64,000 nt of DNA, taken from contig NZ_KB905899.1 in assembly GCF_000381085.1 (NCBI RefSeq), positions 1,116,001 to 1,180,000 on the forward strand. The letters are read 5' to 3'. This stretch comes from Thiomicrorhabdus arctica DSM 13458 (lineage in GTDB: Bacteria > Pseudomonadota > Gammaproteobacteria > Thiomicrospirales > Thiomicrospiraceae). How positions within the stretch are numbered: the first letter of the stretch is position 1; every line of letters starts with the position of its first letter. Both the position numbers and the translations under genes were made by a program. Below, in pieces: positions 4,510-18,585 of this stretch. Under the pieces are notes generated by a model. That model had not been told where the DNA came from, ran no database searches, and saw only the letters and a list, made by a program, of their open reading frames with translations.

Positions 4510-4806
4510 ATGGATGAAAAAGGTCTACCGCTTACAACTAAGATTGCGATTTCTATCGAGTACGAAGGTACTAGCGCACCTAAAGTAACGGCTAAAGGCA
4601 AAGGGTATATTGCACAAGAGATTATTCAAACGGCGAAAGAGCTAGGTATCCCCATTCAAGAAAATGGTCCTCTCGTTGAACTACTCAGCCAGGTAGAGCT
4701 AGACCAAGAAATCCCACCAGAACTTTATGAAGCGGTTGTGCAGGTGTTAATTTTTGCCTACCAAATCAGTGGTAAAGAAATCGCGCCAACGACTCCCGAA
4801 GTTTAG
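4510..4806 (+). CDS. FlhB C-terminal-domain-like protein (FhlB/YlqH type)
   Basis: A soluble 98-residue protein resembling the part of FlhB after its autocleavage site. Compare IAISIEYEGTSAPKVTAKG here with FAVALQYDPDNMQEPIVVATG of FlhB, then AQEIIQTAKELGIPIQENGPL and IPPELYEAVVQVLIFAYQI. It has no membrane segments and no NPTH cleavage motif: it begins just where the cleaved FlhB fragment would. The full FlhB is at 13748. Such proteins are known in bacteria that also carry a second FliK-like gene, as here (1733), and may compete with or replace the FlhB tail during the export specificity switch; that is inference. Confidence 0.85.
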   Translation: MDEKGLPLTTKIAISIEYEGTSAPKVTAKGKGYIAQEIIQTAKELGIPIQENGPLVELLSQVELDQEIPPELYEAVVQVLIFAYQISGKEIAPTTPEV

Positions 4807-4903: not shown

Positions 4904-5410
4904 CTACTCTTCTCCTGCGAACATATTATCGACATCAATCAGAATGATAACGTTATTCTGGAAATGAGCAATACCTTGAATATACCGAGAAACATTCTCT
5001 TTAGTCGCTGACAAAGCCTCTATTTTGCTTTCTGGGATATCTTTGACTTCCATCACAAAATCAACCAACATACCGACAGCGCGCTCACCATCCAACTCAA
5101 CAATAATAATACGTGAATAATCACTTATTTCTTTAGCAGGCATTCCATACATGGAACGTGCATCAATGACGGTGACAATGACACCACGGACATTAATAAC
5201 ACCCAGGACATTATGAGGCGTACCCGCAACCGTTCGAATGATACCAACCCTAAGCACTTCCCTGATTTTCTTAACATGAATGCCATAAATTTCATTCTCT
5301 AGAGTAAAGAGCACACAGCGAGCACTTGGCCCTAGATAAGCGGCCTCATCTTGCATTTCACTCATCGAAGGACTATCGTTACCTGTCATACTTTGAGTCA
5401 TCATATCCAT
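4904..5410 (-). CDS. cheW: Chemotaxis coupling protein CheW
   Basis: The CheW of the main chemotaxis operon, 168 residues. An acidic, methionine-rich N-terminus precedes CVLFTLENEIYGIHVKKIREVLR, then VLGVINVRGVIVTVIDARSMYG and GMLVDFVMEVKDIPES, all standard CheW-fold signatures. The start at 5410 has a very strong ribosome binding site (AGGAGGAGTT). It is 33 bases downstream of cheA and ends the cheY-cheZ-cheA-cheW run. Confidence 0.93.
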   Translation of the reverse strand: MDMMTQSMTGNDSPSMSEMQDEAAYLGPSARCVLFTLENEIYGIHVKKIREVLRVGIIRTVAGTPHNVLGVINVRGVIVTVIDARSMYGMPAKEISDYSRIIIVELDGERAVGMLVDFVMEVKDIPESKIEALSATKENVSRYIQGIAHFQNNVIILIDVDNMFAGEE

Positions 5411-5443: not shown

Positions 5444-7531
5444 TTAAAAGCGCTCTACTACGCCAGGTAAATCCAATATGAGTGCAATACTACCATTACC
5501 AGTAATCGTTGCTCCTGCATATCCTCGTACTTTCTTAAGCATTACGCCAAGAGGCTTAATAACAACCTCTTCCTGACCATTAACTTGATTAACAACAAGA
5601 CCTACTCGTTGATTGCCGACTGACACAATCACGACTTTATCACCCACATAGGACTCTTTTGTCTGATGGGGAGCCAACCACTCACTTAAGAATAGAAGTG
5701 GAATGCTTCTATCTCTCAAGCGCACCATCATTTGGCCATCAATTTTATTGGTTTTTTCGGGATTATAATCGAAAATCTCTTGAACACTGCTTAATGGAAT
5801 GGCATAGCTATCCTCATCAAAACCGACCATTAAGGTTGGTAGAATGGCCAAGGTAAGCGGCACACGTATATTGATTTTTGTGCCTTCACCTAAGACAGAG
5901 TGAATCTCAATACTGCCATTCAATTTAGTGATCATTGTTTTGACCACATCCATTCCAACACCACGACCAGAGATATCACTAATCACATCGGCCGTCGAGA
6001 ACCCTGCAGACAGTATCAATTCAAAAGCAGACTTATCATCAAGCTGACTGGCTGCAATTTCATCCATCATACCTTTTTCAACGGCTTTTTGACGAAGTAC
6101 ATCTGGATCCATTCCTTTGCCATCGTCCGTAATCGACAACAAAATATGGTCCCCCTCCTGTTCTGCCGCTAACACAATAGTACCTGTTTTTGGCTTACCT
6201 GCGGCTGCACGTACATCAGGCATTTCAACGCCATGATCCACCGAGTTTCGAACTAAATGCACTAAAGGATCCGCTAAAGCCTCGACTAAATTCTTGTCTA
6301 AATCAGTCTCTTCACCTTTCAATTCAAGGTTAATATCCTTACCCAGTTGTCGGGCAAGATCTCGCACAACACGTGGAAAACGACCGAATACTTTTTTAAC
6401 CGGTTGCATACGTGTCTTCATCACTGACGATTGCAAGTCTGTTGTGACATGGTCTAAATTTCCAACGGCATTCGCTAGATCTTCAAGACTTACGCCTGCA
6501 CCTTTTAACGTTAAAAGACGGTTTCGTACTAATACCAGTTCACCGACTAAGTTCATAATTTCATCTAAACGACGGGTGTCAACACGAACCGTTGATTCAG
6601 TGGTGTTTTTAGCCACAGGCTTTGCCTCTGCAGCGGTGTTAGAAGGTTTAGGTGTGCTTTTAACTGGAGCCGCTGGGACGCTTTCTTGAGGCTTAGAGCC
6701 CTTAACATTTAAAGGCGTCGGAACGTCACCCGACTCACCACCCTCAAGCAAATCTCTCTGACCCAGTAGAGCTTCAAATTCGTCTTCAGACATATCGCCA
6801 TCCGGATCAACACCGGCTGCCAAAACAATAGAACCAGGTTCATCATTAGAATGATCAGGGCCAAGCACCTCACGCTGGTTCAGTAAAGCTTCGAATTCTT
6901 CTTCAGACATATCACCATCAGGATCGACGCCTTCAGTGAGACTGAGTTCAACAGTCGATACCCCAAGGTTAGCATCGTCGTCCTCAGGCTCCATAACATC
7001 ACGTTGACTTAATAAAGCTTCAAATTCATCTTCAGACATATCTCCGTCCGGGTCAACCCCTTCTCCAAGTTGCAATGGAGATTCAACGATCTGTTCTTCA
7101 ACGACTGGAGGTTTATTCTTTGCTGTTATGGCATCTAAATCAGTCAATAAGACAGGATCATTCTCAGGCATTTCACGCACGCCATCTTTCAATAGATCCA
7201 TTAAATCACTAATGACATCAAATGCCCTTAATATCGCATCGGCAACAATTGCATCATAAGCAACTTCTCTATTGCGAATTTTATCGAAAACGTTTTCTGC
7301 TCTATGGCAAACTTCAATAAGAGGAGTAATGGCCAAAAACCCTGCCCCTCCCTTAATAGTATGAAAACCTCTGAAAACAGCATTCAGTAAATCTGCATCT
7401 TCAGGAGAGTGTTCTAATTCAACTAACTGCTCATTAAGTTGATCAACCAGGTCTGCTGCCTCTGCCAAAAAGTCCTGCAAAATCTCTTCATCCACAACCT
7501 TCCCCTCGCTTGCTTGCACTGAATGGAACAT
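5444..7531 (-). CDS. cheA: Chemotaxis histidine kinase CheA
   Basis: CheA autophosphorylates on its P1 histidine and passes phosphate to CheY and CheB. P1 is clear (GFHTIKGGAGF, phospho-histidine at about residue 57). Next comes a long acidic linker, residues about 140-310, in place of a folded P2 domain. Then dimerisation P3 (RVDTRRLDEIMNLVGELV), the ATPase P4 with the N box HLVRNSVDHGVE, DDGKGMD and GRGVGMDVV, and the CheW-like P5 at the end. The linker contains three near-identical copies of GVDPDGDMSEDEFEALL. 695 residues. I prefer the ATG at 7531 over the in-frame TTG at 7537. It is downstream of cheZ and followed by cheW. Confidence 0.95.
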   Translation of the reverse strand: MFHSVQASEGKVVDEEILQDFLAEAADLVDQLNEQLVELEHSPEDADLLNAVFRGFHTIKGGAGFLAITPLIEVCHRAENVFDKIRNREVAYDAIVADAILRAFDVISDLMDLLKDGVREMPENDPVLLTDLDAITAKNKPPVVEEQIVESPLQLGEGVDPDGDMSEDEFEALLSQRDVMEPEDDDANLGVSTVELSLTEGVDPDGDMSEEEFEALLNQREVLGPDHSNDEPGSIVLAAGVDPDGDMSEDEFEALLGQRDLLEGGESGDVPTPLNVKGSKPQESVPAAPVKSTPKPSNTAAEAKPVAKNTTESTVRVDTRRLDEIMNLVGELVLVRNRLLTLKGAGVSLEDLANAVGNLDHVTTDLQSSVMKTRMQPVKKVFGRFPRVVRDLARQLGKDINLELKGEETDLDKNLVEALADPLVHLVRNSVDHGVEMPDVRAAAGKPKTGTIVLAAEQEGDHILLSITDDGKGMDPDVLRQKAVEKGMMDEIAASQLDDKSAFELILSAGFSTADVISDISGRGVGMDVVKTMITKLNGSIEIHSVLGEGTKINIRVPLTLAILPTLMVGFDEDSYAIPLSSVQEIFDYNPEKTNKIDGQMMVRLRDRSIPLLFLSEWLAPHQTKESYVGDKVVIVSVGNQRVGLVVNQVNGQEEVVIKPLGVMLKKVRGYAGATITGNGSIALILDLPGVVERF
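6752..7060 (-). repeat. Three in-frame peptide repeats in the CheA linker
   Basis: Copies of about 21 residues lie at CheA residues 158-178, 201-221 and 240-260, spaced 39-43 residues apart. The shared core is GVDPDGDMSE(D/E)EFEALL(S/N/G)QR(D/E). The part MSEDEFEALL lines up without gaps with LSQDEVDALL at the N-terminus of FliM (residues 5-14, gene at 17569), the segment that binds phosphorylated CheY. Confidence 0.9.
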
Positions 7532-7609
7532 GTCCAATTAGTGGATATATGTATATTGCAGAAAATATAGCAATCATTGTGCCATTCAATAAATTACTCA
7601 CCCTTAAAT

Positions 7610-8290
7610 CTAGAAACCTAAATCACTTAACAAGTCATCGACCTCTGCTTGTGACTGAGTGGAGCCGTTCTTCGATTTTGCAGTGACATTTGGACCGACC
7701 CCTTTCATTTCATCTGAAGTCTTGTCTTCAGCACTCTCCTCACGATCTGGAATCGAGGCATAATCATGTGTAGACTGGTCAATTAAGTGGATTAAACTTT
7801 GCTCTAAAGAGGTAATAATCATAATGACCCGATTCAATACCTGACCAGTCAAATCCTGAAAAGATTGGGCTAACATGATCTCGGTTAATTCTGAATTTAC
7901 CTTATTAATCGTCTTTAGCAAAATTTCTGTGTCACTGCCAGCTATTGAGTTGCAGGTTATTTCTTGCAAAGAACTCATTAGACTCAATGCATTTTCTGCA
8001 GATTCAAGTGTTTTATTACTGGCTTCTGCCGTCATATTTATGACATATTCCAGGCGTTCAGCCGCATCTGGAATATCATGCTTAGTTTGTAGCAAGAGAG
8101 TGCTGTCATTCAAACCATCCAGCGTTTGATGTAAATTCTGAGTCAACTCACTGACTCGCTGATATAGCTCCGACTCACGTACTTGAGTTAACTCATCTAA
8201 TAGAGCTCCTGCCTGAGACGGTTCTCCGGACTCCAAAGCTTTTAATAGTGCCTTAACGAGATTCTGGTCAATTTGTGTAGGGAAAGTCAT
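7610..8290 (-). CDS. cheZ: CheY-P phosphatase CheZ
   Basis: CheZ speeds dephosphorylation of CheY-P. The protein is 226 residues and mostly helical. The catalytic region appears in SFQDLTGQVLNRVIMIITSLE (the family's QDLTGQ signature with the active glutamine), and the extreme C-terminus, VDDLLSDLGF, is the conserved CheY-binding peptide. It lies between cheY and cheA. A terminator-like hairpin separates it from cheY, while cheA follows after 78 bases. Confidence 0.94.
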   Translation of the reverse strand: MTFPTQIDQNLVKALLKALESGEPSQAGALLDELTQVRESELYQRVSELTQNLHQTLDGLNDSTLLLQTKHDIPDAAERLEYVINMTAEASNKTLESAENALSLMSSLQEITCNSIAGSDTEILLKTINKVNSELTEIMLAQSFQDLTGQVLNRVIMIITSLEQSLIHLIDQSTHDYASIPDREESAEDKTSDEMKGVGPNVTAKSKNGSTQSQAEVDDLLSDLGF

Positions 8291-8383: not shown

Positions 8384-8791
8384 CTATTCGCTGTTTTTTC
8401 GCTCAGCGACACGTTCAAAAATCTTATGAATCTTGCCATTTAAAGTTGCTGCTGTAAAAGGCTTTACAATATAACCATCAACGCCTGACTGGGCGGCTTC
8501 CAATATTTGACTTCGTTTTGCTTCCGCGGTAATCAATAGAAATGGTGTGTCTTTTAAAGATTCATCTGCACGAACACGCCTTAATAGATCAATCCCCGTC
8601 ATTTCAGGCATATTCCAATCACTGACAATAAAGTCATATTTCCCTGATTGAACCATAGGCCATGCGGTAGCACCATCATCAGCTTCATCAAAATGATGAA
8701 AACCTAACTCTTTAAGTAAGTTTTTGACAATTTTACGCATTGTAGAGAAGTCATCCACAACTAAAATATTCATCTCTCTATTGACTTGCAT
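8384..8791 (-). CDS. cheY: Chemotaxis response regulator CheY
   Basis: The flagellar CheY: when phosphorylated it binds FliM and changes motor rotation. 135 residues; acidic pair in ILVVDDFSTMRKIV, phospho-acceptor aspartate in FIVSDWNMPEMTG at about residue 61, switch threonine in LLITAEA, and lysine in YIVKPFTAATL. The DW.MPEM form is typical of E. coli-type CheY. It follows fliA by 49 bases and precedes cheZ. A second ATG lies six codons in; I keep the first. Confidence 0.95.
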   Translation of the reverse strand: MQVNREMNILVVDDFSTMRKIVKNLLKELGFHHFDEADDGATAWPMVQSGKYDFIVSDWNMPEMTGIDLLRRVRADESLKDTPFLLITAEAKRSQILEAAQSGVDGYIVKPFTAATLNGKIHKIFERVAERKNSE

Positions 8792-13747: not shown

Positions 13748-14872
13748 TCATTCTATTTTCATATCTTCAGGTATCGGTAGTTCAGAAAAATTTACGTTAT
13801 CGGCTTTACCATACTCTTTTAACTGGTAAACATAAGCCAAAACGGCCGCCACGGCTTTAAATAAATCATAAGGAATTGGACGGTCTATTTCAGCATTATA
13901 GTACAAAGCTCGTGCTAAGGGGGGGGCTTCTACAATGGTGATATTATTTGCCGTTGCAATCGTTCTTATTTGCGCTGCCATAAAGTCTGCACCCGTTGCT
14001 ACAACAATCGGTTCTTGCATATTATCTGGGTCATATTGTAGCGCAACTGCAAAATGAGTTGGGTTCGTTATAATAACATCCGCATCCGGTACTTTTTGCA
14101 TCATTCGACGCTGTGACATTTCATGCTGTACCTGTCGAATTCGACCTTTAACTTCCGGGTTTCCTTCTTGCTGTTTATGCTCTTCTTTAACCTCTTGCTT
14201 GGTCATTTTGAGTTGTTTATTATGCTCATAAAGTTGAAAAGGCACATCTATTATTGCCACAATCAACAATGATAAGCTAATAAAAATAAAAGCCTCAGCA
14301 ATCAATGCTCCAGCATGCCCTAATGCAAAATTTAAAGGCTCAATACCCAAAGCAAGAATTTCTCCAAAAATCGCATATAAAAAATAGACGGCAACGATCA
14401 TAACCAAACTAAATTTAGCTAATGCTTTGAACAATTCCATCAGGGCTTTTGATGAAAACATGCGTTTAATACCTGAAACAGGATTTAACTTACTAAACTT
14501 AGGTGCCATCGCTTTTGCGCTAAAAGACCACCCTCCCAATAAAAGTGGCGCGACTAAAGCAATTAACATCATCAACAACAGAAAAGGTAAAACTAAATAC
14601 ACAGCCTCCAGTGTAATCGCGGCAATTAAATCAAACATTTTCAATTCATCAAATGCTAGAGAACGCTCAAAACTCAGGCCTTTAGTGATAATCACTTCAA
14701 AATCAGCAATCATGACTTTACCGTAGAACATGAAGAAAAGTGCCGCTATGAGAGTCAATAAAAGTGTGGTGAGCTCTTTAGATCGAGGGACTTGACCTTT
14801 CTCTCTGGCCTCTCTGATCTTTTTCTCAGTGGGTTCTTCCGATTTTTCAGAACCATCAGCATTTTCAGCCAT
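13748..14872 (-). CDS. flhB: Flagellar export switch protein FlhB
   Basis: Membrane export component that cleaves itself at NPTH and switches export from hook to filament substrates. 374 residues: a charged N-terminus (EKSEEPTEKKIREAREKGQVPRS, abridged), four membrane helices, the linker, and the cleavage motif in IITNPTHFAVALQY at about residue 270, followed by the FlhB C-terminal domain. A truncated relative of that last domain is encoded at 4510. It sits four bases after fliR and 29 before flhA. Confidence 0.96.
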   Translation of the reverse strand: MAENADGSEKSEEPTEKKIREAREKGQVPRSKELTTLLLTLIAALFFMFYGKVMIADFEVIITKGLSFERSLAFDELKMFDLIAAITLEAVYLVLPFLLLMMLIALVAPLLLGGWSFSAKAMAPKFSKLNPVSGIKRMFSSKALMELFKALAKFSLVMIVAVYFLYAIFGEILALGIEPLNFALGHAGALIAEAFIFISLSLLIVAIIDVPFQLYEHNKQLKMTKQEVKEEHKQQEGNPEVKGRIRQVQHEMSQRRMMQKVPDADVIITNPTHFAVALQYDPDNMQEPIVVATGADFMAAQIRTIATANNITIVEAPPLARALYYNAEIDRPIPYDLFKAVAAVLAYVYQLKEYGKADNVNFSELPIPEDMKIE

Positions 14873-17121: not shown

Positions 17122-17576
17122 TATTTCAACTTCTTAATACGATCTTGAGGACTCACGACATCTGTCAAACGTACGCCAAACTTGTCGTTAATAACAACAA
17201 CTTCACCATGCGCAATCAAGGTACCATTGACCAATAAGTCTAAAGGTTCTCCTGCAAGACGATCCATTTCTACGACAGACCCCTGAGTATAAGAAAGTAA
17301 ATTTCGAATCGAGACCTTAGCTCGCCCAATTTCCAACTGCAACGTCACAGGAATATCGAGCAAAACATCCAAATCTACTTTATTTTTGCCATCACCACGC
17401 CCTGATGCTAACTCATCAAAAGCTGCTGAACTTATAGTATCAGTTTCACTACTCGCATCGGCCTGTTCGGATAAAGCAGCTCCCCATGGATCATCATCCA
17501 TTGCACCTTCATCATCAGCACCCGCTTGATCGGCTAATGCATCACCCCAAGCACTTAAATCTTCTTCATCACTCAT
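17121..17576 (-). CDS. fliN: Flagellar motor switch protein FliN
   Basis: C-ring protein that with FliM and FliG controls rotation. The SpoA-type domain is in the last 80 residues: VDLDVLLDIPVTLQLEIGRAKVSIRNLLS and LLVNGTLIAHGEVVVINDKFGVRLTDV (each abridged). The N-terminal half is acidic and alanine-rich. I start at the ATG at 17576 (MSDEEDLSAWG), with AAGGAG seven bases upstream, rather than six codons earlier. This start overlaps the fliM end by eight bases. Confidence 0.95.
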   Translation of the reverse strand: MSDEEDLSAWGDALADQAGADDEGAMDDDPWGAALSEQADASSETDTISSAAFDELASGRGDGKNKVDLDVLLDIPVTLQLEIGRAKVSIRNLLSYTQGSVVEMDRLAGEPLDLLVNGTLIAHGEVVVINDKFGVRLTDVVSPQDRIKKLK

Positions 17577-18585
17577 TATTCCACTCCTTAACATTTTCTA
17601 TCGTTGGCTCATGATAAGCCGGGTGATGCAATATCTTTTCTATTTTAACTGCTTTTTTATTATTACTTTCACCAAGTTGTCCATGCACAAAGGCAATTCC
17701 CTCGGCTTTTATCGTGACCTGTTTTGGCATTTCAAGTGGAATAATGTCGCCTTTTTCCATCTGCATCAAGTCATCCATGCTCATCTGCAACTCAGTCAGA
17801 TTTACACTTAAATTAATTTCTATATTCTTCGCTTCTTCTTTAAGTGTTCTTGACCAACGGTTATCACTTTCACCCTGTAGGTTCGACATCCCCTCCTCAA
17901 GCTTATCTCTAATAGGCTCAAGCATCGCGTAAGGCATAACAATATCGACTCGTCCCTCCGTACCTTCAAAGCGCACATTGATCTGACTAACGATAATCAT
18001 ATCTGTGGGATCAACAATTCCAGCAAACTTGGGATTCATCTCAGAATGCATGTATTCAACCTCAATATCCATTACAGGACCCCACGCTTTACGGAGGTTT
18101 TCTGCAGAAATATCTAAAATACTACGAACCATGCTCATTTCTACTGGAGTATATTCACGCCCTTCGATCTTAAAAGGTAATAACCCAGTACCACCAAAGT
18201 AAATATCAACAGCAGTGAAGATTAATTTAGAATCCAATGTAAATAACGAAACGCCATTCAGTGGATTAATACGGTAAATGTTCAAACTTGTCGGCACAAA
18301 AAGATTTCTTAAGTAATCTATCATTTTTATGATTTTAACTTCGCCGGCAGTGACTTCAACACTTGCCATAATCATTTCATTGAAGTGACGCTGAAAACCT
18401 CTAGCAAAACGCTCATTGATAATATCTAAAGCAGGCAAACGCCCACGAACAATACGCTCTTGATTGGTAAAATCGTAAGATGTAGCATTGCCGCCAACCG
18501 AAGAATCATCCTCGGTGTCAACATCACCGCCACCCATGCCCTTTAAAAGCGCATCAACTTCATCTTGACTTAAAATATCATCCAT
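17569..18585 (-). CDS. fliM: Flagellar motor switch protein FliM
   Basis: C-ring protein that receives CheY-P. The N-terminal MDDILSQDEVDALLKGM is the CheY-binding peptide; the middle domain has the GGXG-like turn in YFGGTGLLPF, and the C-terminal SpoA domain has LSVNLTELQMSMDDLMQMEKG. 338 residues. The N-terminal peptide closely resembles the three repeats in the CheA linker. It follows fliL by 10 bases. Confidence 0.96.
   Translation of the reverse strand: MDDILSQDEVDALLKGMGGGDVDTEDDSSVGGNATSYDFTNQERIVRGRLPALDIINERFARGFQRHFNEMIMASVEVTAGEVKIIKMIDYLRNLFVPTSLNIYRINPLNGVSLFTLDSKLIFTAVDIYFGGTGLLPFKIEGREYTPVEMSMVRSILDISAENLRKAWGPVMDIEVEYMHSEMNPKFAGIVDPTDMIIVSQINVRFEGTEGRVDIVMPYAMLEPIRDKLEEGMSNLQGESDNRWSRTLKEEAKNIEINLSVNLTELQMSMDDLMQMEKGDIIPLEMPKQVTIKAEGIAFVHGQLGESNNKKAVKIEKILHHPAYHEPTIENVKEWNNE

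Follow-up and report, generated by a model that had tools for sequence, protein, structure and literature searches.

CheY is known to be bound by peptides of the type found in the C-terminal tail of CheZ. In E. coli CheA, the P2 domain docks CheB as well as CheY (PMC11978298). P2 is missing in over half of CheAs, and the architecture survey names no replacement dock for these kinases (PMC10782961). The published contacts between FliM and CheY involve FliM L6, I11, D12, L14, and L15, with CheY K119 as the partner of D12 (PMC3774744), and FliM peptides favour phospho-CheY ~20-fold (PMC7355467). In Vibrio, a further element of CheA, the LID, has been placed between P2 and P3 and is reported only in species with ParC/ParP (PMC7534058, PMC5706961).

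The CheA considered here is encoded by Thiomicrorhabdus arctica DSM 13458 within a stretch of 64,000 nucleotides (the window), where the gene order is fliA-cheY-cheZ-cheA-cheW (Table 1). The core of the kinase is complete, with Hpt, dimerisation, ATPase, and CheW-like domains all detected by Pfam. At the left window edge lies cheB, which adjoins cheR and whose methylesterase domain maps to G000:C1:1115642-1116175. An earlier note on this DNA claimed that the CheA linker carries three FliM-like peptides at 6752-7060, and these were indeed found at 6764-7054 on the minus strand. Copies 1 and 3 are exact (DPDGDMSEDEFEALL), and copy 2 (DPDGDMSEEEFEALL) differs from them at one residue. The repeat units comprise ~26 residues each and are spaced 39-43 residues apart. 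This arrangement suggests that P2-less kinases may hold CheY by FliM-like peptides.

Table 1. Positions of cheA, its domains and linker repeats, and related chemotaxis features, numbered from the first letter of the window.
Feature	Position	Strand	Remarks
cheA	5444-7537	minus	697 aa, P1-linker-P3-P4-P5, without P2
CheA P1 (Hpt)	7238-7486	minus	aa 18-100; Pfam PF01627, E=3.9e-16
CheA disordered P1-P3 linker	6599-7123	minus	~175 residues, aa 139-313; located where P2 would be
Repeat unit 1, QLGEGVDPDGDMSEDEFEALLSQRDV	6995-7072	minus	core MSEDEFEALL 7010-7039; predicted helix aa 169-181
Repeat unit 2, SLTEGVDPDGDMSEEEFEALLNQREV	6866-6943	minus	core MSEEEFEALL 6881-6910; predicted helix aa 212-224
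Repeat unit 3, VLAAGVDPDGDMSEDEFEALLGQRDL	6749-6826	minus	core MSEDEFEALL 6764-6793; predicted helix aa 251-265
CheA P3 dimerisation domain	6413-6598	minus	aa 314-375; Pfam PF02895
CheA P4 (ATPase) and P5 (CheW-like)	5453-6271	minus	aa 423-562 and 569-695; Pfam PF02518 and PF01584
cheW	4904-5410	minus	directly after cheA
cheZ	7610-8290	minus	C-terminal tail VDDLLSDLGF
cheY	8384-8791	minus	presumed ligand; 56% identity to E. coli CheY
FliM N-terminal CheY-binding peptide LSQDEVDALL	18544-18573	minus	within FliM, 17569-18585

The absence of a folded P2 from the linker, also put forward in the earlier note, agrees with both the domain searches and the structure prediction. A P2 or CheY-binding domain had no Pfam match in T. 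arctica CheA or 33 relatives (0/34). In the AlphaFold2 model, which was based on a 34-sequence alignment, P1 and P3-P5 are confident; the linker has a pLDDT mostly below 55, with no beta strand and no fold, and its only helices are three isolated ones located exactly at the repeats. Helical propensity within an otherwise unstructured segment is thereby predicted at all three copies. Like P2 of E. coli and Thermotoga, the linker sits between P1 and P3 and has a proposed role as CheY dock; whereas P2 is a folded alpha/beta domain, the T. arctica linker consists of disorder with short helices. A second CheA (CheA2, L002, G000:C1:1233866-1235857), which adjoins a cheD-like gene, has a P2-like linker, so that one genome holds both kinds of CheA. 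The label P2-like refers only to a conserved alternating strand/helix pattern, as neither Pfam nor a PDB profile confirmed the P2 of CheA2, and the hhalign probability between the repeat-bearing linker and this P2-like region was 0.25%. The sampled P2-type paralogues (one from the T. arctica genome and 20 from its family or class) share the conserved P2-like segment WxIxIxPExxLLQTGNEPxRIFRELExLG... and all lack the repeat motif (0/21). Since the motif is absent from E. coli CheA as well, it appears to be mutually exclusive with the P2-like domain.

The earlier note treated the repeats as a feature of the T. arctica kinase; they are present there but not peculiar to it, being class-wide in this CheA lineage and older than the genus. 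Related gammaproteobacteria, including Vibrio, Pseudomonas, and Shewanella, have a main CheA with one to five short helical FliM-like peptides and no P2. Linkers were compared in 135 CheAs, which are class-sample matches to T. arctica CheA at E up to 1e-120 plus those of the genus; the repeat occurs in 133 of them and is present two or more times in 123. A strict count, which permitted only Phe or Tyr at the Phe position (Phe was found almost throughout), gave three copies in 71 CheAs, two in 43, one in 10, four in 9, and none in 2, both of which contain degenerate copies. This comparison bears out that copy number varies among relatives. Named relatives with the motif include Thiomicrorhabdus, Hydrogenovibrio, and Thiomicrospira, which are the closest, as well as Vibrio, Photobacterium, Shewanella, Pseudomonas, Alteromonas, and Marinobacter; the 80 loci behind these names are not an unbiased count, as they were found partly via the motif itself. 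When a repeat profile was run against 398 genomes of the phylum, 62 class members matched, mostly two to four times per genome and in CheA-sized reading frames, and outside the class only five of the 398 genomes gave matches, at marginal E-values of 0.004-0.01. The repeats appear to be restricted to the class Gammaproteobacteria. A phage tblastn with the repeat returned weak matches only (E=3-6).

The repeat core is strongly conserved and the spacers are near random; when the two most conserved peptides were picked automatically from the CheA alignment, one was the repeat motif. The class consensus of the repeat is DEITDDEFEALLDQLHGKG, and the genus and family (Thiomicrospiraceae) unit reads LxLPEGVDPDG[DE][MI][TS]D[DE]EFEALLNQRD, where the conservation of E, F, L, and L is 100% or close to it. 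The DPDG[DE] lead and the NQRD tail (6749-7072) are near-invariant in the T. arctica family and missing from the class consensus elsewhere, NQRD occupying the place of the LHGKG tail of the class. The similarity of repeats within one protein (0.775) is only slightly higher than that between species (0.72). A recent tandem duplication was rejected because the DNA identity between copies is 72% and about half of the codons for identical residues differ synonymously. Literature searches for the motif among open-access papers retrieved no earlier description, and its novelty is provisional because the searches were limited to such papers.

The likeness of the core MSEDEFEALL to LSQDEVDALL of FliM and to the CheZ tail VDDLLSDLGF was already drawn in the earlier note and is correct by the sequences read. 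A FliM profile built from N-termini of other genomes was used to scan 132,049 ten-mers in 421 sampled genes of T. arctica. FliM ranked first, followed by the tail of a CheZ-like protein; the CheA repeats took third, fourth, and sixth place and CheZ fifth, which puts the repeats among the best matches of the genome after FliM itself. Because a generic helix N-cap makes up part of the FliM-type pattern, this part was examined on its own: the 421 genes contain 201 generic helix-capping motifs, of which only five extend to [DE]x[LIM][LIM]. These five are FliM, the CheZ-like tail, and the three repeats of CheA. Within the linker, the shuffle statistics are modest owing to its acid-rich composition (490 of 20,000 shuffles reach the score of the third-best repeat), and class-wide conservation is the stronger evidence. 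In 132 of the 135 CheAs, it is the linker and not P3-P5 that holds the best site of the FliM/CheZ type. A search of solved structures with the repeat profile gave only chance matches to LxxLL peptides of nuclear receptor coactivators.

The repeats follow the FliM/CheZ-type target pattern with two systematic differences, in that essentially every copy has Phe where FliM has Ile/Val11 and an acidic residue at the position of FliM Gln8; the CheA repeat is therefore not a plain copy of FliM. With the FliM peptide (LSQDEIDALL) they share the S/T N-cap, the acidic run, a hydrophobic and an acidic residue, and A, L, and L, at the same contact positions, but they are internal, repeated, and part of the kinase rather than the motor. 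With the C-terminal peptide of CheZ (QDxVDDLLxxLGF) they share a hydrophobic residue, an acidic residue, x, L, and L, followed by xxL in most of the class, but they are not C-terminal, carry Phe, and are repeated. Motor mimicry is only partial, since the consensus outside the T. arctica family continues with DxL as in CheZ (D/SxL) and in addition has Phe. The near-invariant Phe is absent from both FliM and CheZ, so that mimicry of the motor target, as proposed in the earlier note, is only part of the story.

When the published FliM contacts are mapped on the repeat, L6 corresponds to Met/Ile, I11 to Phe, D12 to Glu, and L14/L15 to Leu/Leu. On the side of CheY, the proteins from these genomes show full or near-full conservation of K91, I95, A99, Y106, V108, F111, and K119, and A90 varies (A, S, or Q). 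From sequence, predicted structure, and published contacts, we consider it fairly probable that the repeats replace P2 as short linear motifs for docking CheY. Each repeat would form an amphipathic, N-capped helix like those of FliM and CheZ (a hydrophobic residue, S/T, acidic residues, and E-F-E-x-L-L), pack against the alpha4-beta5-alpha5 face of CheY, and keep CheY beside P1 for phosphotransfer, as P2 does in E. coli CheA. With two or three copies spaced ~40 residues apart on a floppy linker, the local CheY concentration would rise, and the T. arctica CheA dimer would offer six CheY sites. The binding of CheY is putative, as are assistance with phosphotransfer and a possible preference for CheY in its unphosphorylated form. 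Docking is favoured by the observations that the FliM-derived profile and pattern select only chemotaxis proteins at the top of 421 genes and that the motif is retained where ParP is absent. On the other hand, the hydrophobic-S/T-xxE-hydrophobic likeness is partly a generic helix N-cap, which also occurs in the Pfam SHOCT model, and neither LHGKG (most of the class) nor LxLPEGVDPDG and NQRD (T. arctica family) is explained by FliM-type binding.

By analogy with FliM, a preference for phospho-CheY would be wrong for a kinase dock unless Phe alters it. The near-invariant Phe, which stands where FliM and CheZ have Ile/Val, predicts a different preference between phosphorylated and unphosphorylated CheY. 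A more far-reaching proposal is that a lineage-wide motor-mimicking peptide array serves as the CheY dock replacing P2, that kinase, phosphatase tail, and motor compete with variants of one peptide, and that Phe tunes the array towards unphosphorylated CheY; this is tentative, and we judge its chances to be somewhat below even. If true, kinase, phosphatase, and motor would use one interchangeable binding code, and repeat copy number would be an evolvable gain control. The repeats offer a specific and cheap test of CheY recruitment by P2-less CheAs in a lineage to which Vibrio, Pseudomonas, and Shewanella belong, and if docking proves wrong, mutating them would instead delineate a new conserved motif for array binding.

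The earlier interpretation is partly supported: its FliM-like peptides in several copies of variable number and the lack of a P2 fold stand, and the binding of CheY to them is putative. It did not consider the known LID region of Vibrio CheA. It seems unlikely that the repeats are, or contain, this LID, through which CheA binds the AIF domain of ParP and the arrays are tethered to the pole. The LID occupies the same CheA stretch in the same kinase lineage, and the sole conserved segments of the LID region in the CheAs of Vibrio, Shewanella, and Pseudomonas are the repeats, notably the later LHGKG copies. Furthermore, parC (ParA-like) and parP follow cheA in most of the class and are missing there in the T. 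arctica family, which has neither ParP nor the LHGKG tail. However, whereas the LID is reported only with ParC/ParP, the repeats persist without ParP: a ParP search of the T. arctica genome and its genus gave only weak best matches, on CheW- or CheV-sized proteins, and yet this genus, with no parC beside cheA, has kept the core and added conserved flanks of its own. Two other genomes without detected ParP (G037 and G046) retain LHG tails, and the repeat core resembles CheY ligands. As the core is fully conserved in a family with no detectable ParP, ParP binding cannot be the function of the repeats in T. arctica. Among the sampled genomes that do have ParP, the LID could well overlap with the repeats, these being the sole conserved part of the region, and ParP binding may be an added function of some repeats elsewhere.

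We regard it as quite unlikely that the repeats mainly dock a receiver-domain protein or partner other than CheY, such as CheB, CheV, or an unknown array protein. The docking of CheB by E. coli P2, the presence of CheB domains and two CheV-sized CheW-domain proteins encoded in the T. arctica genome, and the near-invariant Phe that sets the repeats apart from FliM and CheZ all speak for such a partner, but the contact pattern of the repeats fits the FliM-binding face of CheY.

Finally, we consider it very unlikely that the repeats have no role for CheY and are acidic N-capped helices or spacers of a generic kind, or a loop of the calcium-binding EF-hand type (DPDGD): DPDGDMSEDEF resembles a shortened EF-hand and SHOCT matches with E-values of 0.01 or lower occur in 28 of 34 CheAs, but DPDG is missing from the consensus outside the T. 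arctica family while EFExLL persists, and only five of the 201 generic caps continue into the full pattern. The EF-hand reading was rejected because T. arctica CheA has no Pfam EF-hand match at E<1 (one relative has a trace at E=0.1). The SHOCT reading was rejected as well, since T. arctica CheA reaches 16.8 bits (cut-off 27) and covers only positions 13-24 of the 28-residue model; CheAs viewed singly score 10.9-22.7 bits with about half of the model covered, the best value coming from a set of five relatives that excludes the one with the best E-value (1.1e-8). The AcrF31 anti-CRISPR model (PF25703) scores 32.7 bits (cut-off 27) on the T. arctica CheA repeats, but with only 2 of 34 CheAs matching, the score is probably spurious and attributable to short acidic helices.

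The CheZ-like small protein is encoded outside the window (G000:C1:725741-726295; L221:5741-6295). It matches Pfam CheZ at E=0.0014, below the cut-off, has a DLNGQ motif, and ends near LSQAEIDILM, a FliM-like candidate CheY-binding tail; it is possibly a second CheY phosphatase. Within the window, positions 4510-4806 encode a 98-aa protein that matches the C-terminal part of FlhB only (Pfam Bac_export_2 positions 259-334), and a full-length FlhB-like ORF is also present at 13748-14872.
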